Below are positions 18,356-33,749 of a stretch of DNA of 64,000 nucleotides, piece after piece. The translations under genes were made by a program, and so were the position numbers. The notes under the pieces were generated by a model that searched no databases, was not told the origin of the DNA, and saw only the letters and a program-made list of their open reading frames with translations. This DNA comes from Thermosipho melanesiensis BI429 (lineage in GTDB: Bacteria; Thermotogota; Thermotogae; Thermotogales; Fervidobacteriaceae). Location of the stretch: the NCBI RefSeq assembly GCF_000016905.1, contig NC_009616.1, positions 992,001-1,056,000 of the forward strand. The letters run 5' to 3'. Numbering within the stretch: the first letter of the stretch is position 1; every line of letters starts with the position of its first letter.

Positions 18356-18382
18356 GGGCTTAGTTGCCCTCACTTTTTTTTT
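18353..18382 (+). terminator. Intrinsic terminator after glnA
   Basis: TGAGGGC (18353-18359), loop TTAGTT and GCCCTCA (18366-18372) give a perfect 7-bp stem, followed by an uninterrupted T run to 18382. The glnA stop codon is the start of the stem, and the convergent gene's stop lies in the other arm. On the minus strand no T run follows, so it acts only for glnA. Confidence 0.92.
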
Positions 18383-19230
18383 AAATATTTAAGTCCAAAA
18401 GATAAATCTTTTAGCAATTTATTTTTGTTAGCTGGATATCCATAAAAACCGTATGTCTCACAGAGGGTTATAAATTCATCAATTACTTTAGATGGGAAAA
18501 TATAGTCTGTTACCAATACAAATTTTCCTTCTTTTTTAATTTTTAAAATGTATTTTAGTCTTTCTTGGGTGTGTTTTAATTTTTTGCTTTTGTAGAAAAA
18601 CAAATCTTCTATACCGATTCCATCAATTGAGTTTAGATAAGAGCTGTCGGTGTCAAAGTTTAGTATACTTTCTCCATTTTGTGGAACTATTAGTAATTTA
18701 TATCTATTTTTTATCTCTTTCACGAAATTAATCATTTCATGTGCAGTAAATTCTATATCATACCCGTTTTGTGCCCAATATTCAAATGCATCTATTATAT
18801 CTAGATATAATCCGTCAACCTCTGTTTTTGAAATTATTTTGTTTATTGTTTGAAATACTATTTCTTTCCATTCCTTGTACCAGTATTTTACTTTATAGTT
18901 TCCTTTCCAATTTTCGTTTTCTTTCCCTAACCAGTTTGGAGGATCTTTCCACCATATATCTTTCCAGTAGTATCTATAATCTTCTGCTTCTCCTATACTT
19001 ATATAGGCTAGTACTATTGTGCCGTTTTTTCTGAGTTTTTGTAGGTAGATTTTGTCTTCATTATTTAATATTTCAAACACATCTATCACTAAAAACTTTG
19101 GGGTATAAAGATCATAGATTTTTTTTATATCTATTTTTTGTAGTTGGTAGATAAATGGAACATCTGTTTTTTCTATGCTTGGTATTTGTATTAGTATTAG
19201 CGCAATTAATATCAATGTAAGATATTTCAC
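18370..19230 (-). CDS. TM1410/PelA-type glycoside hydrolase (GH114/GH166-like)
   Basis: Predicted exported glycosidase of the TM1410-like TIM-barrel group, the group related to the PelA hydrolase domain that cuts Pel (galactosamine-containing) polysaccharide. The 286 residues have a hydrophobic signal or anchor at 1-16, the motif AYISIGEAEDYRYYW at 75-89, VDGLYLDIID with Asp144 and GIGIEDLFFY with Glu208, plausible catalytic acids. GTG 19230 overlaps the upstream stop as GTGA, with GGAGGAAGAAAA before it. It is the last gene of the pel-like operon, a separate polypeptide from the deacetylase. Confidence 0.8.
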   Translation of the reverse strand: MKYLTLILIALILIQIPSIEKTDVPFIYQLQKIDIKKIYDLYTPKFLVIDVFEILNNEDKIYLQKLRKNGTIVLAYISIGEAEDYRYYWKDIWWKDPPNWLGKENENWKGNYKVKYWYKEWKEIVFQTINKIISKTEVDGLYLDIIDAFEYWAQNGYDIEFTAHEMINFVKEIKNRYKLLIVPQNGESILNFDTDSSYLNSIDGIGIEDLFFYKSKKLKHTQERLKYILKIKKEGKFVLVTDYIFPSKVIDEFITLCETYGFYGYPANKNKLLKDLSFGLKYLKKK

Positions 19231-21497
19231 TTTTCTTCCTCCAAAAACTTTATTGTTAGTTTTGAAAGCTCTGAACTTAATATGTAAATGTCATTTTCTG
19301 GATAAAAAGCAATTATTTTTCCACCTATAACTTTTCTAATAGGTATTTTCGTGCGAAGCAGGAAGTATTTAGGTTTTATTGTTGATGATTCGATAATTAC
19401 TTCCAAGCTATTTCCTTTTATGTTATATTCATACTTTTCCGTTAAAAATTCAAATAGATACGGATATGCTTCTGAAGCTGTTTGGTTTCTTAACCAAGGA
19501 AAGGTGGTTTTGATTTTATAGTAAAATTTATCTAGATGTAACAATAGTTCTTTCCAGCTTTTATTTAACGGATTTCTTTCATTAGAGAAGAAATCATCGG
19601 GATGTATAAAATGTTGAAAAGCACCAAAATTTGAGAGTGTATTTATTGTGGTAAGCAATATTTTTTTTAAAGGATAGTATCCATAAGTAGGACGTGGTAT
19701 GATTATTGTAAAGTTTTCCAAAATTTTGTATTCTGAAAATTCATCTGGTGAGGTATATGTTGTGCCTATTGTTTTTATTTCTGGTAATGCTTTAATTAGG
19801 TTTTTTACTCCAAATTCATCAATAAGGTTATTTGGAGCAACGTAGCTGTTTATAAAAATAGGGTGCCCAAGAACAGATTCAATGAATTTTTTGGCGGATT
19901 TTAATCCTTCTTGTAGATTTTCTTTATTTGTCCAATTTTCTTTTAAAAGTGAAAGGTGATTATATCCGTGAAGACCAAGTTCATGTTTTGAATTGTCTAT
20001 TTCCATTAAAGCCTTAATAGGTTCATCTGTTATTAGAAATTCTGAAAAATCAAAAGGAGGATTACTTGCCCCATTATAACTTAACGGAGTGATAAATGTA
20101 TATTTTATATTGTAACTGTTTGCAAAATCCTTTATATCTTTCCACCATATCTTGTAATAAAAGTCGGTATCTTTTATGCCTTTCTTTTTTATTTCATAAG
20201 AAGGTATTGGAAAATCATCTATGTAGAATATGTAGGAATTTAAAAATCCCATAATGTTGTAATCTTGCATTTCCAATATACATTGTAAGATTAATCCCCT
20301 TAATTCTTTTATTACCAAAGGTGGATATATATATCCTATATATCCACCTTTTTCTTTTTTATACCAAATAGCTGGAAGCTTTTCGTTTGAACTTACAAGA
20401 TATGAAAGAATAGTTTCATTGTCAAGGACAATTTTTAAGTTTTCTTCGAAGGTTCTTTCTAATTCAATTCCATCTTTAGAATTAGTTAATGGAAAAAGTC
20501 TTTTATCAAAAATAATTTTTGAAATTGCATGTTTTTCAATTTTTATCTTATCCTTCCATGGAGTATTGTGCAAATCTGTTATATAAACAATGCTTCCACC
20601 ATTTTCCAAAAACATTTCAGTATTTTCCGTATCTATATATTTTGCATTTGTTATCCAGATTATATATCTATAATCTAAAAGATCTATAAAAGATTTGTTG
20701 TAGAAAGTGCTGATGGTTGTTGTATTAAAGTTTATTTTTGCATATTCTAACATTTTTTCAATTTGGTATTGTATATTTACATAATAATTAGTATCGTATT
20801 TGTCTTTTACTAGTAAAATTTTATTTTTACTTCCTACAGTTTTTTTGAGAAATATGTTGAATATTTTTTCAATGTTTAATATAAATTCTTTATTGTTATC
20901 AAAAAAAGAATTAAACAATGCTCCGCCACCTTTAGGGGAAATAAATATTAGAGGATATGTTTCGTTGTTTGATTTTAGTTCCAGCAAAATATTGACATCT
21001 TTTTCAAAGATTTTGTATTTTTCTACGGGTTGAGGTAATGTAGAAGGAGTTGCAGTGAAAAATTCTTTTTCATATAAAGGTTCAAAGTTTTTTAAAACTT
21101 TGTATCCATACATGTAATGTACTCCAAGCTTATTTAAAAAATTATTTATTTCTCTTTGATTAGTTGAAACTCCAAGGTTATTGAAAAAGAAGAATATACC
21201 GTTATTTTCCACAAAGTTTGATAATTGTCTTAAATAAAGGTTTGGATATTTTAGTTCTGTTGAATAATACCAACTAATTACTCCAAGGTATTCCTTTGTA
21301 GAAATGTTGTAGTAATTAAAGGTTTCTATATCTTTTAGATCATAACTTATGCCGTTTTTTTCTAATATGGGAATAACATAATTTTGAAGCATATATTTTC
21401 CGTATTCTTCTGTTTTTTTATACAATAACAAAATCTTTTTTTGTGAAAAGACAAACAAACTTAAGATTAAAAGTAGAATTATGATAAATTTTTTCAT
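19227..21497 (-). CDS. pelA: PelA-type polysaccharide deacetylase (DUF2194-like)
   Basis: Predicted exported protein with a C-terminal metal-dependent polysaccharide deacetylase domain. The 756 residues comprise a signal peptide (1-19), a long N-terminal alpha/beta region to about 410 and the deacetylase at about 420-700. Visible metal and catalytic motifs are IDDFP (Asp427, Asp428), HELGLHGYNH (His510, His514) and HPDD (His632). In Pel systems this domain partly de-N-acetylates the polymer. ATG 21497 overlaps the pelG stop as ATGA. The hydrolase half of classical PelA is encoded separately downstream. Confidence 0.8.
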   Translation of the reverse strand: MKKFIIILLLILSLFVFSQKKILLLYKKTEEYGKYMLQNYVIPILEKNGISYDLKDIETFNYYNISTKEYLGVISWYYSTELKYPNLYLRQLSNFVENNGIFFFFNNLGVSTNQREINNFLNKLGVHYMYGYKVLKNFEPLYEKEFFTATPSTLPQPVEKYKIFEKDVNILLELKSNNETYPLIFISPKGGGALFNSFFDNNKEFILNIEKIFNIFLKKTVGSKNKILLVKDKYDTNYYVNIQYQIEKMLEYAKINFNTTTISTFYNKSFIDLLDYRYIIWITNAKYIDTENTEMFLENGGSIVYITDLHNTPWKDKIKIEKHAISKIIFDKRLFPLTNSKDGIELERTFEENLKIVLDNETILSYLVSSNEKLPAIWYKKEKGGYIGYIYPPLVIKELRGLILQCILEMQDYNIMGFLNSYIFYIDDFPIPSYEIKKKGIKDTDFYYKIWWKDIKDFANSYNIKYTFITPLSYNGASNPPFDFSEFLITDEPIKALMEIDNSKHELGLHGYNHLSLLKENWTNKENLQEGLKSAKKFIESVLGHPIFINSYVAPNNLIDEFGVKNLIKALPEIKTIGTTYTSPDEFSEYKILENFTIIIPRPTYGYYPLKKILLTTINTLSNFGAFQHFIHPDDFFSNERNPLNKSWKELLLHLDKFYYKIKTTFPWLRNQTASEAYPYLFEFLTEKYEYNIKGNSLEVIIESSTIKPKYFLLRTKIPIRKVIGGKIIAFYPENDIYILSSELSKLTIKFLEEEK
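20317..20351. repeat. 15-bp perfect inverted repeat inside pelA-type gene
   Basis: The arm at 20317-20331 (AAAGGTGGATATATA) and the arm at 20337-20351 are exact reverse complements around a 5-nt loop. Read on the plus strand, antisense to the gene, the stem is followed by TTTCTTTTTT, the shape of an intrinsic terminator. In the sense direction it encodes GGYIGYIYPP and has no T run. Confidence 0.6.
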
Positions 21498-22885
21498 TTT
21501 TTCACTCCTTTGATAATTTTTCCTTCGGGAATAGAAAGCTTTTGTCTGAAAAACTCTATCTTTATTATATCCTTTACACGTCTTTTAAGTATGTTGTATG
21601 AAACAAGTGTACCGACTAAAAATGAAATAGCATAACCCCCTCCAAGCGCAGCGTAACCTATTTTTTGTGTTAGTATATAGCTTAAAACAAGGTTTAAGGA
21701 CAATACCGAAAGCGTTAAAACTAGTGCGGTATTTCTAAAGTCAAAGTACAATATTAACAATAATATCATTAGAAAAAAACCATTTAACATAGCACCTATT
21801 AATCCTAATCTTAAGATTGGTTTAGAAAATTCATTTGAAATAGGAAGCAATTTTAACTCGTTTAGTGTAAACATTAAGGTGGTTACTAATATTTGTATCT
21901 TTATTGTAAGTGATATACTTTGATTTAATTCTTTTTCCATATTTTCTTTTAGTGTTAAGATTTCTGAGTATACGTATCCTTTTATTAGAGATATATAAAA
22001 TTGTTTGTATTTTTTGTAAAAACGTGTTTCTAGGATTAATATAAACATTGTAATTGTAGGAATAATTGTTAGGTAGCTAAAAAACATAGGACTATCGTAT
22101 ATATATGAAAATTTAAAACCTTTTATTAATTCTTCGCCAAATTTTTGTGTGTTCCAAACAATAATATCATCAATCCATATGGAAAGATAGTATAAAAGAC
22201 CTATGAAGAGGAGTTGCCAATAATTTTTAATTTCTTTTTTCCATTCAAACGAAATTTTGTATGATTCGTTTCCAAATGAATTGTAGATTATTATGAAATT
22301 TATTACAATTCCCACATTAACTCCTAGGGCGTATCCGTATATTTCAGAAAACGTTGAAAATGAAAACACTTTTGAAAGTAATATGGCTGAAATTCCCATA
22401 ATAATGTATGAGAGGATGTACCAGTTTATTTCTTCTGTAGCTATAGTAACAATGGAGATTAACCATAATATAGTTAACGAGGTTGTTAAATAGCTAAAGG
22501 CAATTATGAAATCAAAAGGTTGTGGTTTTATAGAAAAGAAAATAGTTAGAAATATGATTAGTATGATTGCATTTGAGACGATTATGCCTAATGTTTCAGG
22601 TAAAATTTTTTGGTAATTTTTTTCGTAAATTAAGTCTGATATTCTCCGTGAAAAAAACATGGAAAATATTCCAGAAATTATTATTGAAAAGATAAAAGAA
22701 TATATTACTGCAGTGTTAAAGTATATATTTGTGGTTTTTATGTAGTTGAGAATTATCCACAATGATATAGTTGTTATAATCCACGGGCCTGCAGATGTTA
22801 AGATTGAATAAAGAATTGCAAGTACATCTGTATATATTTTGTTTTGAAAGAAAAGTCTATTTAATTTGAACCCTATTCCTGCCAC
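21494..22885 (-). CDS. pelG: PelG-like polysaccharide transporter
   Basis: Multi-spanning inner-membrane protein of the PelG family, related to MOP flippases, which works with PelF, PelD and PelE to make and move Pel polymer. The 463 residues start at GTG 22885 with MAGIGFKLNRLF, a recognisable family opening, followed by SAGPWIITTISLWII and about a dozen hydrophobic segments. GGTGGTGAAAT precedes the start. It is 1 bp from pelF upstream and overlaps the deacetylase gene downstream. Confidence 0.85.
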   Translation of the reverse strand: MAGIGFKLNRLFFQNKIYTDVLAILYSILTSAGPWIITTISLWIILNYIKTTNIYFNTAVIYSFIFSIIISGIFSMFFSRRISDLIYEKNYQKILPETLGIIVSNAIILIIFLTIFFSIKPQPFDFIIAFSYLTTSLTILWLISIVTIATEEINWYILSYIIMGISAILLSKVFSFSTFSEIYGYALGVNVGIVINFIIIYNSFGNESYKISFEWKKEIKNYWQLLFIGLLYYLSIWIDDIIVWNTQKFGEELIKGFKFSYIYDSPMFFSYLTIIPTITMFILILETRFYKKYKQFYISLIKGYVYSEILTLKENMEKELNQSISLTIKIQILVTTLMFTLNELKLLPISNEFSKPILRLGLIGAMLNGFFLMILLLILYFDFRNTALVLTLSVLSLNLVLSYILTQKIGYAALGGGYAISFLVGTLVSYNILKRRVKDIIKIEFFRQKLSIPEGKIIKGVKK

Positions 22886-22886
22886 T

Positions 22887-24302
22887 TTATTTCACCACCG
22901 AAAGATATAGGTTTTTATAATTTTTTATCATTTGCTTTAAGGTATATCTTAGTAGAACTCTCTTTTTTCCGATTTCAGATGCTTTTTCTCTAAATGTATC
23001 ATTCTCATAAAGTGTTATTATAGCATTGGCAATTGATTTAAAATCTTTTGGTTTAACTATTATTCCTGCAGGACCAATTATGTCTTCTTTGCTCCCATAT
23101 ACCAATTCTCTACATGCGCCAACGTTTGTTGCAATCACGGGTATACCTATGGAAAAAGCTTCTAATATAACAAAAGGTTGTCCTTCACTAACGCTTGTTA
23201 GTAAAAGAAGATTTAGATTTTCATAGTATTTTTTTACATCTACCATGCCTGTGAACTCAACTGTGTCTTTTAGATTAAATAATTCCACCATTTCATAACA
23301 TTCTTTAAAATATTCTGGTTCTTCATCTTTAGGGCCAATTATATATAATTTGAAATCTTTTATCTTGTCTTTTACTATTCTTGCAGCCTTAATTGCAGTT
23401 TTTATATCTTTTATTTCAACAACCCTTCCAACTAATCCAACGTTGAAGGGATGTTTTTCTTTTTTGTATTTTATATCTTTGAATTTTTCCACATCTATTC
23501 CATTGGGAATTACAAACATTTTTGAATCATCGCTGCAGAATTCTTTTTCAAATTTTTGATTATCTTTAAATAACGTGGTAATTTTCTTTGCACCTTGATA
23601 TACAATTGAACTTATTGTATTAAATAGTTTTATCCAACCTGTTTTGAATTCTTCTTTTATCCAATCAGAGCGTAGTATTTCAAGTTGTCTTTCTCTATGG
23701 TATATGCCGTGTTCCGTTAAAACAACTGGTTTATTGTATTTTAATCCATTTAATATTGCGGATATACCTGCATACCCTGTTGTTATTGTATGGTATATAT
23801 CACATTTTGGAAGATCTATTGTCATTGCGTTTAAAAATGGAATCATCATTGAATATAATGTCCAATAGTAGTTTGGAAAATTTTCGTAAGGTAGATATTT
23901 TTGATAAAAGTTAATTATTGAATTCCAGTAGAAATCTGATTTTAGAAAACTTGTAAAATCAAAAGAGTTATTGTTTTCAAAAAGGTGGTATAGTTTTTTG
24001 CCCATTGCTTTTTCGTCAAATGGATATTTTATTATTTTACTGAGTTCATTGGTAAACTTTTTTGCTATTTTTTTCTTGTTTTTGAATTTATATTGAGCAA
24101 ATAATGAGAATTCAAAATAGTCAGTAACATTTTTTGGAAATTCATATTTAAATTGCCTTTCTTTAGGTATATCTCCAACGTGTATTACACAAAATTCCAT
24201 ATCTTTTATGTTTTTTATTAAAGAATGTCCCCAACTTGATACTCCTCCTACTACGTAAGGATACGTACCTTCAAAAATTATTCCTACTTTCAGTTTAATC
24301 AC
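22887..24302 (-). CDS. pelF: PelF-like glycosyltransferase (GT4)
   Basis: Cytosolic GT-B glycosyltransferase expected to polymerise nucleotide-activated amino sugars in Pel synthesis. The 471 residues begin with the PelF-type N-terminal domain (VGIIFEGTYPYVVGGVSSW, about 6-24). The GT4 donor site is near the C terminus (SEGQPFVILEAFSIGIPVIAT, an E-x7-E pattern, and NVGACRELV). The start GTG 24302 overlaps the upstream stop by 8 bp. The ribosome binding site AAGGTGATT contains that GTG, so the true start may be a rarer codon a few residues later. Confidence 0.87.
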   Translation of the reverse strand: MIKLKVGIIFEGTYPYVVGGVSSWGHSLIKNIKDMEFCVIHVGDIPKERQFKYEFPKNVTDYFEFSLFAQYKFKNKKKIAKKFTNELSKIIKYPFDEKAMGKKLYHLFENNNSFDFTSFLKSDFYWNSIINFYQKYLPYENFPNYYWTLYSMMIPFLNAMTIDLPKCDIYHTITTGYAGISAILNGLKYNKPVVLTEHGIYHRERQLEILRSDWIKEEFKTGWIKLFNTISSIVYQGAKKITTLFKDNQKFEKEFCSDDSKMFVIPNGIDVEKFKDIKYKKEKHPFNVGLVGRVVEIKDIKTAIKAARIVKDKIKDFKLYIIGPKDEEPEYFKECYEMVELFNLKDTVEFTGMVDVKKYYENLNLLLLTSVSEGQPFVILEAFSIGIPVIATNVGACRELVYGSKEDIIGPAGIIVKPKDFKSIANAIITLYENDTFREKASEIGKKRVLLRYTLKQMIKNYKNLYLSVVK

Positions 24303-24681
24303 CTTCTAACATTTTTGTTATTTCATCTTTTTTTGGGTTATTTTTAATTATATACAACCCAAATTTTTGTATAGAAGTTAAATTTAATTTTTCAAGCTCT
24401 TCTATTAGAAGATTAAATTTTAAATTTTCTGCAAATTTGTATTTGTTAAAATCTTTAAGAGTTGAGGAAATTACCATTAATTCTTCTACTTTTGCTAAAT
24501 CTTTTGTTGTTAAGTTTTGTTTGTTGTACAACTCGTTAAATATTTCATTCATTTTTATGTATAAGCTTCTTTTATCCCAAGGTAATTTCTTTATCTCATT
24601 TGGAGAGATTACTTGATTGTAATTTATAACAATTATTATTACTATTAAAAATAGAGTTAGAAAGAATAAGATTTTGTCCAT
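24295..24681 (-). CDS. Small membrane-anchored protein in pel-like operon
   Basis: I do not recognise a family. The 128 residues have one N-terminal membrane segment (about 4-22, ILFFLTLFLIVIIIVINYN) followed by a helical, charged soluble part. GAGTGATAA precedes ATG 24681. Its position between PelE-like and PelF-like genes with 4-8 bp spacing or overlap makes a role in the same machine likely. It could be an accessory or detached piece of PelE, but no repeat motif proves this. Confidence 0.65.
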   Translation of the reverse strand: MDKILFFLTLFLIVIIIVINYNQVISPNEIKKLPWDKRSLYIKMNEIFNELYNKQNLTTKDLAKVEELMVISSTLKDFNKYKFAENLKFNLLIEELEKLNLTSIQKFGLYIIKNNPKKDEITKMLEGD

Positions 24682-24685
24682 TTTA

Positions 24686-25543
24686 TCACTCCAGAATTAC
24701 TTTCAAAGCTTCATTTTTGAAAGTAAAGTTATATGCGTTGAATTTTTCTAGTAACTTTTTAACTTTTTCTTTCTTTTTCTTTTTTATATAGAAAAGTAAA
24801 GCTTTTTCAAGTAAGGTTTGAGAGTTTAGTTTTTCAACTTTTTCATCTATTATCTCCTCAATAAGTTCATCTTCGCCAAGGTATTGTAGTACATCAATTA
24901 ATAATAAAATGGTTTTTATATTAAAAGGATATGTTGCTAGATTGTCTAGTAAGATTTGCTTTATAGAGAGCAAGATATCTATCTTTTGATTTTCCGTGAG
25001 AAAAGGAGATAGGGCATAATAAAATGAATATTTTGCATATTCTATCTTTTTATTCTTTGTTTCTGAAATCTTTTCTAAAAGTATATTTTCCACGTTGTTT
25101 ATACTTTCTGAGGCATATAGGACTACATCTTGGTCCGAATTTGTTTCAATTACGCTGTATAGTAAATTTATTCCTTCTAAAAAATCTATTTGTTCTGTTT
25201 TTAAAAGTTGAAATATCATTCTGATCGCTTCTTTTTTTTGAGAATTACTACCGTATTTAAGTATTATGTTAAAAGGTGCTAGATCCACACTTTTAAAATC
25301 AGGGTTTGAAATTTCCAATATTTTTTCTTCGAAGTCTTCCGAAAAATATGTTGGGCTCCTTGGTTTTAAAAGCATTAATTTTATTATAGGATAATATGGA
25401 AAAAAAATTATTGAGTTTAAAAGATCTAAGATCTTTAGATCAATTAGATTTAAAGCTAGATATAAAAAGAAGAAAAATATGTTTGTTTTTATTATTGGTA
25501 ACACTCCAAATATAATTGTTAAAAACATTATAATTTTTTTCAT
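24686..25543 (-). CDS. pelE: PelE-like membrane protein with helical repeats
   Basis: Predicted PelE-like protein: two N-terminal hydrophobic segments (about residues 4-20 and 22-60), then about 200 residues of amphipathic helices of TPR or HEAT type (for example KTILLLIDVLQYLGEDELIEEII). In Pseudomonas PelE combines membrane helices and TPRs and partners PelD and PelG. Sequence identity to PelE cannot be judged by eye, so the call rests on architecture and on position directly after pelD. ATG 25543 overlaps the pelD stop as ATGA. Confidence 0.65.
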   Translation of the reverse strand: MKKIIMFLTIIFGVLPIIKTNIFFFFLYLALNLIDLKILDLLNSIIFFPYYPIIKLMLLKPRSPTYFSEDFEEKILEISNPDFKSVDLAPFNIILKYGSNSQKKEAIRMIFQLLKTEQIDFLEGINLLYSVIETNSDQDVVLYASESINNVENILLEKISETKNKKIEYAKYSFYYALSPFLTENQKIDILLSIKQILLDNLATYPFNIKTILLLIDVLQYLGEDELIEEIIDEKVEKLNSQTLLEKALLFYIKKKKKEKVKKLLEKFNAYNFTFKNEALKVILE

Positions 25544-26736
25544 TCTTTTGTATATGCCTCCAATACTTTAATGTTTTTTTCTAACCTTATCTTTTCAAGG
25601 ACACGTTCAAGACCTTTAGAATTACAAGAAGTAAGGATTATATTTAATTCATTTTTTTCTTTGTTAAAGAATACGAAGTCAGTTTCTCTAATGTATTTTT
25701 TTATTTCGTTTACCTCGAATTCTTTGGAAACAGATATTTTAATAAAGGAGTATGGAATTTTGAATCTTCGAAATCTTTCATCTATTTTTTCGAAAATTAA
25801 ATTGAACTTTTCTACATCAGTTGTTATTGTTTGTTTTTCAAGTTCCAATGAAACATATAGAAGATTGGATAGCCAATCTGATAAAAGCTTCAAATAGGTT
25901 TCTGTGTTTTTGTTTATCTTTTCTGGGTCAATGTTTTCAATGACTACAAAGCCAACAGTTTTGTTTTTTTGCGATATTTTTGCGGCCATAACCGGCTCCA
26001 TTGAAAAGTCAACATTTTCATCTGAGAGATATAAAACGCTTGCAGATGAGAAGCCTAATTCATTTGCAGTTGAAATAATTTTTGATTTTTCAATGGGAAA
26101 TGAGTTAGGAAGAATTTGTGAACCTTTTCTTACTTTTAATCTTAAAAAATTGTTTTTGCTGATTGTATATATGGAGACGGTTATTGCATTTACGAAGTCT
26201 GAGATAAGTTCAACTGCTTCGTTGAATATATCTTCTGGGTTGTTGAATTCTATCTCCTTTAGTTTATCAACAAATAGTGATACACCTTTATTTTCGAGTA
26301 GTAGTTTGTTTTGCAAGTCTTTCGTTAATGAAGAGTATTTCTTTATATTTTCTTTAAGTCGTTTAATTTTTTCGTTTAGTATCTTTATCTGATTTGCTTG
26401 TTCGTTTATTTTTTGGATGTACATATCTCTAAAAAATCCTATTAGAAATCCTATTGATAAGATAATTAGTGGTATGCGCATAACAGACCATGAAAATATC
26501 ACTGAAAAGATGTTGATTTTGTAGTGTATGTAAAGTGAAGTAAAATAGTAAAATAAGCTCAAAGATGTGGAAAAAAAGAAAAGATTTATACCATGTCTTA
26601 TTGAAATGTAAATATTCAATACAAAATAAGGATTTGGATATGATAGAACATATCCGTAGTATTTAAATAATATATCTATAAAGAATATGATTGTGTTGAG
26701 AACTATGATTTCAATATAATTAAAGTATTTTTGCAT
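25540..26736 (-). CDS. pelD: PelD-like c-di-GMP receptor (TM-GAF-degenerate GGDEF)
   Basis: Predicted inner-membrane c-di-GMP receptor that switches on Pel synthesis. The 398 residues contain four membrane segments within 1-101, a coiled coil at about 105-150, a GAF domain at about 155-295 and a C-terminal degenerate GGDEF domain at about 305-398. RETD at 350-353 matches the RxxD inhibitory-site motif that binds c-di-GMP. The catalytic GGDEF signature is replaced by NKEKNEL, so no cyclase activity is expected. GGAGG precedes ATG 26736. First gene of the operon. Confidence 0.85.
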   Translation of the reverse strand: MQKYFNYIEIIVLNTIIFFIDILFKYYGYVLSYPNPYFVLNIYISIRHGINLFFFSTSLSLFYYFTSLYIHYKINIFSVIFSWSVMRIPLIILSIGFLIGFFRDMYIQKINEQANQIKILNEKIKRLKENIKKYSSLTKDLQNKLLLENKGVSLFVDKLKEIEFNNPEDIFNEAVELISDFVNAITVSIYTISKNNFLRLKVRKGSQILPNSFPIEKSKIISTANELGFSSASVLYLSDENVDFSMEPVMAAKISQKNKTVGFVVIENIDPEKINKNTETYLKLLSDWLSNLLYVSLELEKQTITTDVEKFNLIFEKIDERFRRFKIPYSFIKISVSKEFEVNEIKKYIRETDFVFFNKEKNELNIILTSCNSKGLERVLEKIRLEKNIKVLEAYTKE

Positions 26737-26898: not shown

Positions 26899-26927
26899 TT
26901 GACAAATGTAAATATATTGTGTATAAT
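26899..26927 (+). promoter_or_regulatory. Consensus promoter for small-peptide/HD-GYP operon
   Basis: TTGACA (26899-26904), 17-bp spacer and TATAAT (26922-26927) match the sigma-70/SigA consensus exactly. The predicted start near 26934 leaves a leader of about 64 nt before ATG 26998. The leader does not resemble a c-di-GMP riboswitch by eye. This is the strongest-looking promoter in the window. Confidence 0.85.
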
Positions 26928-26997
26928 AATGAACGTAAATAAATATTGTGATAATAATAAGTTTCTTTTCTAAAAAACAGGATGGGGAGGGGATGTT

Positions 26998-27108
26998 ATG
27001 AAAAAACTTTGGAGAAAGATAGTTGTTTTTGCGCTTGTGGCATTACCATTTGTTATTGCTACTGTGGGTAACATTACTTTGTGGCCAGGTAAAGGTGGAG
27101 GAAAATAA
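26998..27108 (+). CDS. Small secreted-type peptide, 36 residues
   Basis: Unrecognised micro-gene. ATG 26998 is preceded by GGAGG at 26986-26990 with ideal spacing, and by a consensus promoter. The peptide has a basic N terminus (MKKLWRK), a hydrophobic core of about 14 residues ending near residue 21, and a short tail TVGNITLWPGKGGGK. A signal peptidase site after ...FVIA would release about 15 residues; alternatively the peptide stays in the membrane. It ends 25 bp before an HD-GYP gene. An exported signal, a small membrane partner of the HD-GYP protein or a leader peptide are all possible. Confidence 0.65.
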   Translation: MKKLWRKIVVFALVALPFVIATVGNITLWPGKGGGK

Positions 27109-27133
27109 AAAAAGAAAAAAAGCGGGTGATTAT

Positions 27134-28426
27134 GTGGGGAGTGGGTTGAAGTCTTTAGTTTTAAAAATGAATTTTGTAACTATATATGCATTTTCATTGG
27201 GAGCGATTTATTTGCTCCTTCTTTTTCTTTCTTATGTGAAATATGGTTTTGACTTTAGGGATATAAATTTTTATTTAATGCTTCTGTTTTATCTGTTATT
27301 TGAATTTATTCCTGTAAGATTTCAGACATTTTTTGAAAGAAAATTTGATGAGAGTAAGAAAACAATTGATATGTTTTTTAGTGTAGGGTTAATTATTTCA
27401 ATTCTTTCGACAATAATACTAAAAATTACGAATGCGTTGGTTTTGCCGTTAATTGTTTTTTTAATTTTAAGAGTTAGGGTTTTGTTTTCAAAAGAGTACT
27501 ATTTTTTTATTTTTAATGTTTCTATGATAGGTATATTGGTTTTTGTTGTTTCAAAATTTTTTGAGATTTTTTCTTTTAAAAATATTGTTTTATCTTCTCT
27601 TTATGTGGCTGGAATTTCTGCTGTATATTCAATATTCAATTTGATATTTAGCTTTTTATTTTTGACTTTTATGTATAAAGACTTTTCAAAGAAATATTTT
27701 AATATGCTCATTGGTGATGGAAGGTTTTACAATATTCTTTCTACGAGTTTGAATGCTTTTTTAGTGTATTTTTTGTATAGGTTAATAGGAATTTCTGCTA
27801 TTCCCGTTTCGTTTTTTACCATATCTAGTATTCAGCTTGGAAATTATTATGCAACAAAATATAGAAATGCAAAACTGGAGCTTTTGATGGCACTTGCTAA
27901 AAGCTTAGAAGAAAAAGATAGTTATACCTTAGGACATGGAGAAAATGTTGCAAAACTTTCTGTGGAGATAGCAAAAGAATTGGGTTTTAGTGATAATGAT
28001 TTAAAGTTACTAGAAATTGCAGGTATTTTACATGATGTTGGAAAAATAGGTATTCCAGATATAATTATTTCAAAGATGGATAAGTTAACTTCAGAAGAGT
28101 ATGAAATAATGAAAGAGCATTCTGTAAAAGGCTATGAAATACTGAAAAATATTACAGAATACAAAGATACTGTAGCAACATGGGTTCTTCATCACCATGA
28201 AAGATGGGATGGAAATGGTTATCCAGGTGGATTAAAAGAGGAAGAAATCCCATTGTTTTCAAGAATATTAACAATTTCAGATGTCTTTGATGCAATAACG
28301 AGTGATAGACCGTATAGAAGGGCATGGAGTAGAAAAAAAGCTATAGCATTTATTAAAGATAACTCGGATATAATCTTTGATCCCGAAATTGTTAATGTTT
28401 TTTTAAAAGTGATTGGGGAGGACTAA
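27134..28426 (+). CDS. Multi-spanning membrane HD-GYP c-di-GMP phosphodiesterase
   Basis: Predicted c-di-GMP hydrolase. GTG 27134 (GGGTGAT upstream) gives 430 residues; ATG 27167 is an alternative start. About seven hydrophobic segments cover residues 10-240, a MASE-like input module. The HD-GYP domain from about 255 contains GHGENVAKLS, HDVGKIGIPD, HHERWDGNGYPGGL and DVFDAITSDRPYR, all intact. It lies divergent from the PelD receptor operon, so lowering c-di-GMP for that receptor is plausible. The open frame extends upstream through the small peptide gene, but no good start lies there. Confidence 0.87.
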   Translation: MGSGLKSLVLKMNFVTIYAFSLGAIYLLLLFLSYVKYGFDFRDINFYLMLLFYLLFEFIPVRFQTFFERKFDESKKTIDMFFSVGLIISILSTIILKITNALVLPLIVFLILRVRVLFSKEYYFFIFNVSMIGILVFVVSKFFEIFSFKNIVLSSLYVAGISAVYSIFNLIFSFLFLTFMYKDFSKKYFNMLIGDGRFYNILSTSLNAFLVYFLYRLIGISAIPVSFFTISSIQLGNYYATKYRNAKLELLMALAKSLEEKDSYTLGHGENVAKLSVEIAKELGFSDNDLKLLEIAGILHDVGKIGIPDIIISKMDKLTSEEYEIMKEHSVKGYEILKNITEYKDTVATWVLHHHERWDGNGYPGGLKEEEIPLFSRILTISDVFDAITSDRPYRRAWSRKKAIAFIKDNSDIIFDPEIVNVFLKVIGED

Positions 28427-28428
28427 AA

Positions 28429-28908
28429 ATGATTTTATATATTTTTTTAATTGCATTTTTCATGTCTTTGATAACAAAAAGAATAATAAAAGTAATTGGA
28501 AGAAGTTATAAATACTTTTATCTGTTTCCAGTACCTTTCATTTTGCAGGTTATTCCATACTATAGAGAGATTCTAATGCCTTTTTCTTTTTCTTTTTTGA
28601 TTATTCTTTTACTTTTAAACAAGCATGTTCCAGGATTTTCACTTATAACCATAGGTACCGTTTTGAACTCATTTGCGATGATGTTATATAACTGGAGGAT
28701 GCCTGTGTTAAAAAGTTTGGCGGAAAAATTTGCTCTTCCCGTTGGTATGAGGCATGTTTTGGTGGATAAATTTAATTGGAGTTTGTTTTTTGGAGATTGG
28801 ATTCCCGTAGTTTTGCCGTGGAAGGAGTATTATATAATAAGTATAGGTGATATCTTTGTATATATTGGGGTCTTTTGTTTTTTGCTTAAGGTAAATAAAA
28901 AAACATGA
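28429..28908 (+). CDS. DUF5317-like integral membrane protein
   Basis: 159-residue membrane protein with about five hydrophobic segments. The sequence WRMPVL followed by GDWIPVVLPWKEYYIISIGDIFVYIGVFCF resembles DUF5317 proteins, whose function is unknown. It starts 2 bp after the HD-GYP stop and is followed by a terminator, so it is the third gene of the peptide/HD-GYP unit. I cannot assign an activity. Confidence 0.72.
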   Translation: MILYIFLIAFFMSLITKRIIKVIGRSYKYFYLFPVPFILQVIPYYREILMPFSFSFLIILLLLNKHVPGFSLITIGTVLNSFAMMLYNWRMPVLKSLAEKFALPVGMRHVLVDKFNWSLFFGDWIPVVLPWKEYYIISIGDIFVYIGVFCFLLKVNKKT

Positions 28909-28910
28909 GA

Positions 28911-28939
28911 AAAAAATACTCCCGAAAGGGAGTTTTTTT
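28911..28939 (+). terminator. Intrinsic terminator after DUF5317-like gene
   Basis: ACTCCC (28918-28923), a GAAA tetraloop and GGGAGT (28928-28933), then a T run to 28939. An A run upstream (28911-28917) extends the pairing and would also allow termination in the other direction. It closes the peptide/HD-GYP operon. Confidence 0.92.
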
Positions 28940-29618: not shown

Positions 29619-32070
29619 TTTGGAAAAATTAACTCCAATGATGAAGCAATATATGGGGATAAAGGAAAAATATAAAGATGCAATACTTTTATTTAGACTT
29701 GGTGATTTTTACGAAGCATTTTTTGAGGATGCGGAAATAATCTCAAAAGTGTTGAATATTGTTTTAACAAAAAGGCAAAATGCCCCCATGGCGGGGATAC
29801 CGTACCATGCATTAGATAATTATTTAAAAAAACTTGTTGAAAGTGGGTATAAGGTTGCGATATGTGAACAAATGGAAGATGCATCTCAGGCAAAGGGAAT
29901 AGTGAAAAGAGAAGTGACAAGGGTAATAACTCCTGGTACTATTATTGAAGATGAACTTCTTTCAAATGATAATAATTATTTAATGGCGGTAATATTTGAT
30001 GAAAAATATGTTTCTGCCTTTATAGATGTTTCAACTGGTGAATTGTTTTTGAAATCTTTTGATACCTTTTTAGAGTTTGTTGATTTTGTGAAAATTTCAA
30101 GTATATCGCAAGTAATTTGTAGTAAAGAGTTGTTTGATAAATTAAAAGAAGAAATACCTCACCTTTTTGTTGAAGAACTGGATGAATGGTATTTTCAAGG
30201 CTATGAAGAAAAGATAAAAGAAACATACGGGCTTTTTTCCATTGAACATCTCGAAATAACTGAACTTGAAAAAAAGGTATTAGGTGCTTTGTTTAAGTAC
30301 CTTGAATACACTTTGATGGAAAATAAACCACCACAAAAACCTAAAAGATTAGAAGGTTCAAAGTATATGATTTTAGATTCAAAAACCGTTGAAAATTTAT
30401 CTCTTATTCCTGGAGAAAAAGGTAAGAATTTATTTGATATACTTAATAAAACAAAGACGTCTATGGGAGCAAGGCTTTTAAAAAAGTGGATTTTGCAACC
30501 TTTAAAAGAAAAAAAAGAGATATTGGAAAGGCAAAAGTTGGTAGAAGCGTTTTATAACGATCATCTTCTTTTAAATGAAGTAAGGGAATACTTAAGTGGT
30601 GTTTATGACTTAGAGAGGATTTTAACTAGATTAGGTTATGGAAAAGTTTCACCTAAAGATCTTGTTTCCCTGAAGAGAAGCCTGTATTTGGTTCCAAGTA
30701 TAAAAGATGCTTTGAGAACTAATGAAAATCTAGTGAGTTTTGCACAGAGTTTGAATGAATTTAATGAAGTTGTAGGTATTTTGGAAAAAGCCTTGTATGA
30801 TGAGCCATCAAATGCTCCAGGAGACGGTAATGTAATAAAAGGTGGGTATTCTGTTGAATTAGATGATTATCGTAATTTGTTATTTCATTCTGAGGAAAAA
30901 CTCAAGGAGTTTCAAGAAAGTGAACGGGAAAAGACTGGTATTCAAAAATTAAGGGTAGGTTTTAATCAAGTCTTTGGGTATTATATTGAAGTACCAAAAG
31001 GTCAGGTGAAAAATGTTCCAGATTATTACATTAGAAAGCAAACGCTTGTGAATTCAGAAAGGTATATAACGCAAGAATTGAAGGAATTTGAGGAAAAAAT
31101 AATGTCTGCTCGTGAAAAGGTAGAATTGATAGAAAAAAGTTTATTTGAAGAATTGAAACAGAAACTTTCTGAGTATATAGATGGTTTAAGAAATTTAGCA
31201 CAGAAGTTATCTGAGCTAGATGCTATTTCGAACCTTGCTATGGTTGCTAGATTGTATGGATATACAAAACCCAAATTTACAGGTGGAGAGTTTTATGTGA
31301 AAAATGCTAGGCATGCTGTTGTTGAGCGGTATGTTTCAGATTTTGTGGCAAATGATATATACATGGATGATAGAAGGAGAATGTATATAGTTACAGGTCC
31401 TAATATGAGTGGGAAGAGTACGTACATTAGACAGGTAGGTTTAATAGCCGTTATGGCACAAATTGGTTCTTTTGTACCGGCGGATGATGCAGAAATTCCC
31501 ATTTTTGATAGGGTATTCACACGAATGGGAGCCCGTGATGATATTTCAACTGGTAAGAGTACTTTTTTAATAGAAATGAGTGAAGTAGCTTTGATACTTG
31601 AAAAAGCTACGAAAAAAAGTTTGGTGTTATTGGATGAGGTTGGTAGAGGAACAAGTACATTTGATGGAATAAGTATTGCTTGGGCTATGAGTGAATATAT
31701 ATACAATGAAATAGGATGTGAAACTATGTTTGCAACTCACTTTACGGAGCTTACAGAACTTTCAGATGTTTATGAAGGAATTAAAAATTTAACAATAGAG
31801 GTAAGGGAGACAAACAATGGTGTGGTGTTTTTGCATAAGGTTGTTGAAGGAATCGCAGATAGAAGTTATGGTATAGAGGTTGCTCAAATAGCTGGTGTTC
31901 CTGATGGAGTTGTAGAACGTGCAAAAGAGATTTTAGATATAATTTCTCAAAAGAGTGAACTTGAGAAAAAAGTAAGGGTTTTAAAGGAAGGACAACTTAA
32001 GAAGATAAAGAGTAAGAAAAAAATACCAGAAGGACAACTTTCACTTTTCGAGGTGGGTGACATAGAATGA
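29611..32070 (+). CDS. mutS: DNA mismatch repair protein MutS
   Basis: Mismatch-recognising ATPase. ATG 29611 gives 819 residues. Domain I carries the mismatch wedge in [15 protein letters not shown] (about residues 29-43). The ATPase has Walker [10 protein letters not shown], Walker [17 protein letters not shown], and the C-terminal helix-turn-helix region [26 protein letters not shown] at 29620 is an alternative start. mutL is not in the window. The stop overlaps the next ATG as ATGA. Confidence 0.96.
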
Positions 32071-33749
32071 GATTGAGTACATTTATTTGGAAAAATTATA
32101 TTAAGATAATTTTATTGTTATTAGTTATTTCATTTTTTATAATTTTTTCGATTTATTTTATGTTAAGTAATAGATTAAATGAGCAGATTGAATCCATGTC
32201 AGTAACTTTTGTGAAAAACACTATGGATATATTTGAACAAACACTGAAAGATTTTAGTTGGTATTTTAATAAAGAACTTGAAAATACAATAGTTGAAATA
32301 AAACAAAATCCGAAAAAGGCCGAAAAAATGTTATCTTTCCTTTTTTCAAGGGCCCCTTTTTATTTTAAAAATGTGTATATGTATATATTGGAGTATAACA
32401 AGCTAGATGAAAAAATAAAAACCAAATTGAAAGAGCCCGTAGATTATTTTGTATTTAAAAACATAGCAAAAGGAAGGTTTGAAAATAAGTTATATATTAG
32501 AGTGGAAGGGAAAGTTTATCTTTTGGAAATGTATTTACCTATTGAAATTTTTAATAACGCGCTTTTAAGTATATTAAATGTTAAGAAAAATTTTGATTTT
32601 TTAAAATCCGTTAATTTTTGTAATTATTCTGGTGACCCAATATCAGAAAAATTTCAAAGATTTAGTTTAAAAAAGGAAAAATTATTGGAAATTTTTGAAG
32701 ATGAAAAGCCCTATGTTCAAATTGAAGATGGGATATATACTATACATTATCCTTGGAAAATAGAAGGTGAAAAGGAAATTTTTGGGCCTTTGCTTTTAAG
32801 TATAACCTTTGATTTTTCTTATGTCCACGAGGTGATCTTTTACATAATTTTAATTGTTATTTTTTCAATTCTTTTTGGTGTTGTAATTTCCATTAAATTT
32901 TCTCAAAAAGTTTCAAAAAAGATTTCCAATCATTTTGAAAAGTTAATTTCAAACATGAGAGAGTATAGGAAAAACAAGGTTTTTAAAATAGAAGATTTTG
33001 AAAATTGTGAGATTAAAGAAATAAATGCTCTTGTGTATGAGTATAAATATATGGTAGAAGAAATATCAGCAGCTTTCCAAGAGTTAAATGCTATGAACCA
33101 GGAATTAGAAAGTAGTTACGTAGAATTAGAAAAACTCAATAATGAACTGGAGGATTCATACCTTTATTTTAGTACAAGGCTTGCAAAAATAGCAGAAGGT
33201 TACGATGAAAATACGGGAAATCACATAGATAGAGTGGGATTGTTATCTGCTTTTATTGGTGGAAAAATGGGGCTTTCCAAGGAGTTTGTTTACAAACTTA
33301 GATTTTACGCACCACTACATGACATTGGAAAGATTTTTGTCGATAGAAGTATTTTGTTAAAGGAAGGAAAATTAACAGAAGAGGAATGGGAAGAGATGAA
33401 AAAACACACTATTTATGGAGCAGAGTTGATAGGTGATAAACCCCATTTTAAGATTGCTAAGAATATAGCACTTTGTCATCATGAAAATTGGGATGGAAGT
33501 GGTTATCCGTATGGTTTAAAGGGCGAAGATATTCCAATAGAAGCTGCAATTGTACATCTTGTTGATGTCTATGATGCATTACGTTCAGAAAGACCGTATA
33601 AAAAAGCGTTTTCTCACGAAGAAGCTATGAGAATAATATTAGAAGGTGATGGAAGAACAAAACCTGAGCATTTTTCACCTGAGATTTTGGAGATTTTTAG
33701 AAAGTATGAAAAAATAATAAAAAGGCTTTGGAATAGAATATATCAATGA
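32067..33749 (+). CDS. Sensor HD-GYP c-di-GMP phosphodiesterase
   Basis: Predicted membrane sensor and c-di-GMP hydrolase of 560 residues. A first membrane helix (about 12-33) is followed by an extracytoplasmic sensor region of about 220 residues, a second helix (about 255-277), a coiled-coil stretch (about 330-365, [20 protein letters not shown]) and a C-terminal HD-GYP domain with [30 protein letters not shown] and [13 protein letters not shown]. All key motifs are intact. It starts within the mutS stop (ATGA), an unusual partner. The ligand of the sensor region is unknown. Confidence 0.87.

Follow-up and report, generated by a model that had tools for sequence, protein, structure and literature searches.

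The locus considered here lies in the genome of Thermosipho melanesiensis BI429 (phylum Thermotogota; a single contig of 1,915,238 bases) and was analyzed within a stretch of 64 kb, to which we refer as the window. It comprises a three-gene operon—a micropeptide gene, a gene encoding a predicted membrane c-di-GMP phosphodiesterase of the MASE9-HD-GYP type, and a gene for a DUF5317 membrane protein—along with a divergently oriented Pel-like exopolysaccharide cluster (Table 1). A first-pass annotation had described a consensus promoter and an ideal ribosome-binding site at the micro-gene, an HD-GYP enzyme with about seven membrane helices, and a DUF5317-like protein followed by a terminator, and each of those elements was recovered in our analysis, the promoter being the sole perfect match with a 17-bp spacer on both strands of the window. 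Of 92 relatives of the micro-gene, 89 had at least four G residues at positions -15 to -6, which degree of enrichment was found at only 15% of random positions. The start of the HD-GYP gene is uncertain, either the GTG at 27134 or the TTG at 27146 being likely; a 467-aa HD-GYP reading frame starting at 27023 was discarded as a mechanical over-extension across the peptide gene. The window also encodes a second membrane HD-GYP protein (32067–33749, + strand), which gene adjoins a mutS-like gene; no MASE9 match was found in that protein, and a profile search located only one MASE9 in the genome.

Table 1. Features of the operon and of the divergent cluster, in window positions.
Feature	Position	Strand	Remarks
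Pel-like exopolysaccharide cluster, divergent from the peptide promoter	18370..26736	-	PelD-like TM+GAF protein, two unassigned proteins, PelF, PelG, DUF2194, GH114
Sigma-70-type promoter TTGACA-17 bp-TATAAT of the peptide/HD-GYP/DUF5317 operon	26899..26927	+	12/12 match
Shine-Dalgarno GGGGAGGGG of the micro-gene	26984..26992	+	Sequence; 5 nt ahead of ATG 26998
Micropeptide gene, 36 codons, MKKLWRKIVVFALVALPFVIATVGNITLWPGKGGGK	26998..27108	+	Basic N-terminus, membrane helix with small-residue face, AxVG-x4-W core, PGKGGGK extension
MASE9-HD-GYP gene, predicted membrane c-di-GMP phosphodiesterase	27134..28426	+	Pfam PF20972 + PF13487
DUF5317 membrane protein, encoded third in the operon	28429..28908	+	Pfam PF17248, 3.7e-22
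Hairpin, intrinsic-terminator-like, at the operon end	28918..28933	+	Sequence

In Pfam, the HD-GYP protein matched HD_5 (3.3e-39) and MASE9 (1.1e-28; 101 bits versus the PF20972 cut-off of 24.3), the latter domain spanning about 27230–27853; by curated score the enzyme is a member of the MASE9-HD-GYP proteins, of which Pfam describes the sensor domain only. The AF2 model of 27134–28423 (pLDDT 89) contains about 6–7 membrane helices. Since the catalytic residues (HDxGK, HHE, GxGYP) are invariant in 43 homologues and the HD-GYP domain matched the c-di-GMP-bound HD-GYP structures 4mcw and 9rbz in Foldseek, this intact active site would be expected to hydrolyze c-di-GMP. The MASE9 membrane bundle, for its part, weakly resembled the riboflavin ECF S-component TmRibU (Foldseek probability 0.7–0.85, E 1.4–2.5), which likeness does no more than hint at a bundle that binds ligands. 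The DUF5317 protein scored 79.4 bits versus the PF17248 cut-off of 25 and was modeled with a pLDDT of 94.9 (AF2); neither a Foldseek search with that model at E≤0.001 nor a profile search yielded a fold match in the PDB. Its invariant residues are G76, N80, M91-P92, D123, S138, G140, D141, and G147, with H109 conserved at ≥90%. The motifs SxGD and LGDxIP led us to consider an LspA-like membrane aspartyl protease, which candidate we rejected, LspA being absent from the fold matches and no profile match being found.

The micro-gene is a real gene that is conserved and on which purifying selection acts. Its in-frame pN/pS was 0.13–0.30 in six well-sampled groups, as opposed to 0.56–4.7 in the other two frames, and 0.60 in a small extra group of three sequences, the substitutions falling mostly in third codon positions. 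Because this low in-frame ratio is accompanied by the phylum-wide linkage to MASE9 and by the tandem copies described below, we conclude that the micro-gene is not a chance reading frame, as the first-pass annotation had surmised when it described the 36-codon gene as looking real. Neither Pfam nor NCBIfam contained a sequence match to the peptide family, and the viral contigs searched contained no relatives; the family is unannotated, which shows that conserved genes of about 25 codons can be overlooked by annotation.

Members of the family have 22–36 residues and begin with a basic N-terminus, after which come a single membrane helix, a turn of small residues, and a tail ending in Trp; examples are MKKMWKKIIVFALIALPFVIATVGNLTLWPSKGGK from the same genus, MRKLMKIVLVLGSLFGTLMAVVGANKIW of the Thermotoga type, and MKGKIFKLAIVAGGLLSLILAAVGSSKWW of family f8. 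Throughout the family set the peptides accordingly have a single hydrophobic stretch and fewer than 50 aa, as would small membrane-protein regulators, the topology being predicted from sequence only. The common core is small-x-VG-x4-W in Thermotogota and LAGGA-x3-W in Bacillota. With the turn's Gly/Ala as the anchor of the alignment, positions -3 (98–100%), -7 (93–98%), and -10/-11 (73–87%) were occupied by small residues in Thermotogota and Bacillota alike, a basic residue was found at -17 or -14, and the shared core closed with a Trp at +5 or +4. The small residues are spaced as one helix face, so that the peptide has the look of a membrane helix made to pack on another. The anatomy proposed earlier for the window peptide—basic start, hydrophobic core, Gly-Lys tail—was present in full, but the Gly-Lys tail proved not to be the conserved part, being a lineage-specific extension confined to family f1.

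With DUF5317, which is present in 42 of 103 Thermotogota genomes, as an anchor, the regions fetched contained a micro-ORF with a strong ribosome-binding site directly 5' of the MASE9-HD-GYP gene. A peptide profile run against all 103 genomes gave 50 matches at E<1e-6, the next match being at E=0.009; 48 of those 50 were on the same strand as a MASE9 match and 100–511 bp 5' of it, while the other two, and likewise the single MASE9 gene lacking a peptide, were all situated at contig ends. When counted by genome, MASE9 was present in 42, the peptide in 42, and both in 41 (Fisher p=1.8e-26); that is, 41 of the 43 genomes holding either held both, one having MASE9 only and one the peptide only. In the Thermotogota genera without MASE9 there was no significant peptide match, save for a single genome, where it lay at a contig end. 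The peptide remains beside the HD-GYP gene in family f2 even though DUF5317 is located elsewhere. The test suggested by the first-pass annotation, that of whether the micro-gene is conserved beside orthologous HD-GYP genes, thus gave a positive answer, and these counts support a genuine partnership between the peptide and this HD-GYP subfamily.

A comparable arrangement was found in a set of 398 genomes, whose label of Bacillota we inferred from the clostridial seed locus. MASE9 occurred in 121 of them, and in 49 of the 60 loci examined a ...LAGGAxxxW peptide was located just 5' of the MASE9 gene or overlapping its start. A Bacillota peptide profile gave 90 matches in the same genomes, 78 of which lay 65–414 bp 5' of MASE9, and MASE9 was present in 82 of the 89 peptide-bearing genomes (p=5.6e-46). 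Among loci whose 5' side was complete, 41 had the order UP, peptide, HD-GYP, DUF5317, where UP denotes a protein of ~210 aa (EIHVLA...RxPKQIVRDIESA...DHKKISVAQ), belonging to no Pfam or NCBIfam family, whose gene lies directly 5' of the peptide leader in loci L154–L213. Five MASE9 loci, likewise complete on the 5' side, had neither UP nor DUF5317 and lacked the peptide too, and three of those five encode long MASE9 proteins (570–600 aa). The DUF5317 gene is usually 3' of the HD-GYP gene, the overlaps being often of 4 or 11 nt, and at L192 both belong to a single fused MASE9 reading frame of 604 aa, preceded by the UP gene and the peptide. None of the DUF5317 genes of Bacilli and other genomes (L116–L122) lay beside an HD-GYP gene, and no MASE9 was found in six of those genomes (L119 left out).

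The Natranaerobius thermophilus plasmid NZ_CP144220.1 (L110, 3344–5282) carries a copy of the module in which the HD-GYP and DUF5317 genes are split and seem to be frameshifted; ahead of them stands an intact peptide ORF, MNKVVLILVTLLGVVLAGGASFTWGGGG, for which there is no CDS in the plasmid table; an intact copy of the module at L166 has a peptide identical to that of the plasmid. In Chloroflexota, peptides such as MKDRILRLSITLMAIAATALAGGASLKGF precede MASE9-HD-GYP genes, a purely descriptive count giving some 7 convincing cases among 20 sampled loci. Going by these loci, the peptide sits directly 5' of one membrane HD-GYP type in at least three bacterial phyla. MASE9 and DUF5317 also occur together in one genome of Thermus/Deinococcota.

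Two or three tandem copies of the peptide occur in five genomes. Where those copies have diverged, as in three genomes, the seven-residue tails were identical at 7/7 positions in five comparisons, whereas the cores were only 28–50% identical, and the nucleotide differences between the tails were exclusively synonymous. Positions +1 to +4 were identical in 20/20 cases versus 36/95 for the core (p=7e-8, the comparisons not being fully independent), and copies up to 511 bp off retain identical tails with synonymous changes. In L048 and L049, which are sister genomes, pairing follows orthology for the cores (17/21 and 15/18) but the genome for the tails (SITWW versus NVTWW). The coexistence of identical tails with diverged cores indicates that selection keeps the tail constant within a cell while leaving it free to change between lineages, which behavior would be as expected if a single receptor read the tail, in so far as three genomes may tell. 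A mature part constant within the genome and diversified between lineages, the pattern sought in a pheromone, was thus found in those three genomes, although tail identity within a genome would be compatible with a membrane partner and with a secreted signal alike.

We consider that the peptide is probably the dedicated partner or signal of the MASE9-HD-GYP enzyme. To the more specific reading, that the peptide would serve the MASE9 sensor domain of the HD-GYP protein encoded beside it as a dedicated membrane ligand or regulatory subunit, we assign about even confidence. In such a scheme the peptide would span the membrane once, with the N-terminus inside and the C-terminus outside, according to the positive-inside rule; its small-residue face would pack on the MASE9 membrane bundle, or on that of DUF5317; and the short Trp-ending tail would be the part recognized at the outer membrane face, so that binding or loss of the peptide would switch or stabilize the phosphodiesterase, DUF5317 joining the complex as its third membrane component. 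The output in a Thermosipho-type genome would probably be the c-di-GMP control of, for example, the divergent Pel-like exopolysaccharide cluster. We favor the membrane-subunit reading because of the purifying selection, the near-absolute adjacency to MASE9, the helix-packing face, the identity of the tails, the invariant HD-GYP residues, and the fusion or overlaps of HD-GYP with DUF5317. Against that reading, the turn and the short tail might just as well represent a site for signal peptidase that yields a product of 5 residues, the presence of up to three gene copies would be unusual for a stoichiometric subunit, and some clostridial MASE9-HD-GYP proteins (L204, L208, L211, L179) do without the peptide.

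The main rival, which we consider less likely, is that the peptide would be a pheromone precursor whose basic-hydrophobic part serves as a signal sequence and which is cut at the turn by a membrane protease, the released Trp-ending peptide (e.g., NVTWW or ANFRW; here NITLWPGKGGGK) being sensed by MASE9 and thereby setting the level of c-di-GMP. This possibility would account for tails that are identical within a genome, variable between genomes, and paired by genome in L048/L049 with synonymous differences between copies, and is consistent with the multiple copies, with the strong promoter and ribosome-binding site, and with the weak likeness of MASE9 to the ligand-binding TmRibU (E 1.4–2.5). 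A packing face conserved in two phyla would, however, be superfluous in a signal sequence, and that face seems to fit a membrane partner better than a secreted signal; moreover, no exporter or processing protease is linked to the module, DUF5317 has no protease-like fold match, and the tail in most members lies only 4–5 residues from the membrane.

That the peptide might be an assembly or stability factor of the CydX type for the HD-GYP/DUF5317 membrane complex, devoid of a signaling role, we regard as improbable: the invariant linkage, the helix-packing face, and the HD-GYP/DUF5317 fusion would be accommodated readily, but neither the tail pattern—varying between genera and identical within a genome—nor the occurrence of up to three tandem copies would be explained by assembly itself. 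Least of all can we credit a cis-acting leader peptide whose translation would control the downstream HD-GYP gene by attenuation or translational coupling, since, despite the position of the micro-ORF directly 5' of that gene and the structured leader RNA ahead of the micro-ORF in Bacillota, selection acts on the amino acids, among them those of the helix face and of a motif conserved over a long range, the tails stay identical, their changes being synonymous, in tandem copies lying up to 511 bp away, and there is no regulatory codon run.

Among known systems, small membrane-protein regulators of signaling enzymes, such as MgrB acting on PhoQ and the CydX-type subunits, come near to the present one; like those, the present peptides have fewer than 50 residues and one membrane helix and are encoded with, or would act on, a membrane sensor or enzyme, but here the partner would be a MASE9 c-di-GMP phosphodiesterase along with DUF5317, and the peptide combines a conserved small-residue face with a variable Trp tail. 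The short hydrophobic peptide pheromones of streptococci, SHP/Rgg and ComS/XIP, share with this family a short basic-hydrophobic precursor and a conserved C-terminal segment, sometimes with Trp-Trp, encoded beside a receptor gene; in contrast, there is no Rgg/ComR-type cytosolic receptor here, the neighbor being a membrane HD-GYP enzyme, and the processing and release of the peptide are hypothetical. The peptide likewise recalls AgrD as a short membrane-associated precursor beside a membrane-protein gene, but we rejected that identity, there being no AgrB or histidine kinase, no conserved thiolactone Cys, and no NCBIfam match, and the neighbors being HD-GYP, DUF5317, and UP.

The first-pass annotation had also raised a possible relationship to TM0504 of Thermotoga maritima, a short glycine-containing peptide reportedly linked to exopolysaccharide formation in coculture. 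We found none. In a Thermotoga genome (L230) the position just 5' of groES, which we take to be that of TM0504, holds a 43-codon ORF (934–1066) without the peptide-family motif, which ORF overlaps the tmRNA (945–1300), reads through the tag frame, and ends in the tag peptide ANEPVAVAA. Should this ORF be TM0504, the peptide reported in relation to EPS would correspond to the tag frame of tmRNA.

Few direct inputs of membrane HD-GYP phosphodiesterases are known, to our knowledge. A review of c-di-GMP sensory perception mentions many putative sensory domains, including MASE1, without discernible physiological purpose (PMC8846402). Our searches, confined to an open-access library, returned nothing relevant on MASE9 or DUF5317, on any peptide linked to them, or on HD-GYP proteins with peptide pheromones or small ORFs, so that an earlier report may yet exist. 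Tentative, and somewhat on the doubtful side, is the broader proposal that in Thermotogota, Bacillota, and Chloroflexota a gene-encoded peptide would be read directly through MASE9 by a membrane c-di-GMP phosphodiesterase, with neither kinase nor import, the Trp-ending tail setting the specificity and DUF5317 being part of the receptor or a peptide handler. Should this be true, a dedicated co-encoded peptide would constitute a concrete and testable c-di-GMP input in three phyla, many thermophiles and clostridia among them, and would give a peptide encoded by a gene a direct connection to the second messenger governing biofilm formation and lifestyle switching; the pairing would in addition provide a lead to the function of MASE9 and DUF5317.

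With respect to the divergent cluster, the family matches were PelF (NF038011, 1.1e-109) and PelG (PF16933, 2.9e-110), DUF2194 and GH114 being also matched. The membrane-GAF protein has a RETD motif conserved in 4 orthologues and is in that respect reminiscent of PelD, although no family model matched it. The neighbors on the PelF side are the same in three further genomes of the genus and were not found in the other genera examined, so that we infer a c-di-GMP link between the module and a Pel-type polysaccharide for this genus only.

As to the leader RNA, no known riboswitch was found in Rfam at either gathering or lax thresholds, and the motif AGCGRA is absent from the window. That motif occurs at 2.17 per 180 nt, against a background of 0.06, some 120 nt 5' of the peptide start in loci L154–L213 (e.g., L199, L189, and L170), and the Thermotoga leaders (L052–L065) have three copies. 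The leader arms were too variable for RNAalifold on plain MAFFT alignments. In an anchored helix search with a swapped-partner control, the Bacillota leader showed a hairpin with covarying arms around a UAGCGGA-type loop, at least 6 bp being formed in 26 of 35 leaders versus 15% after the arms had been swapped between genomes.
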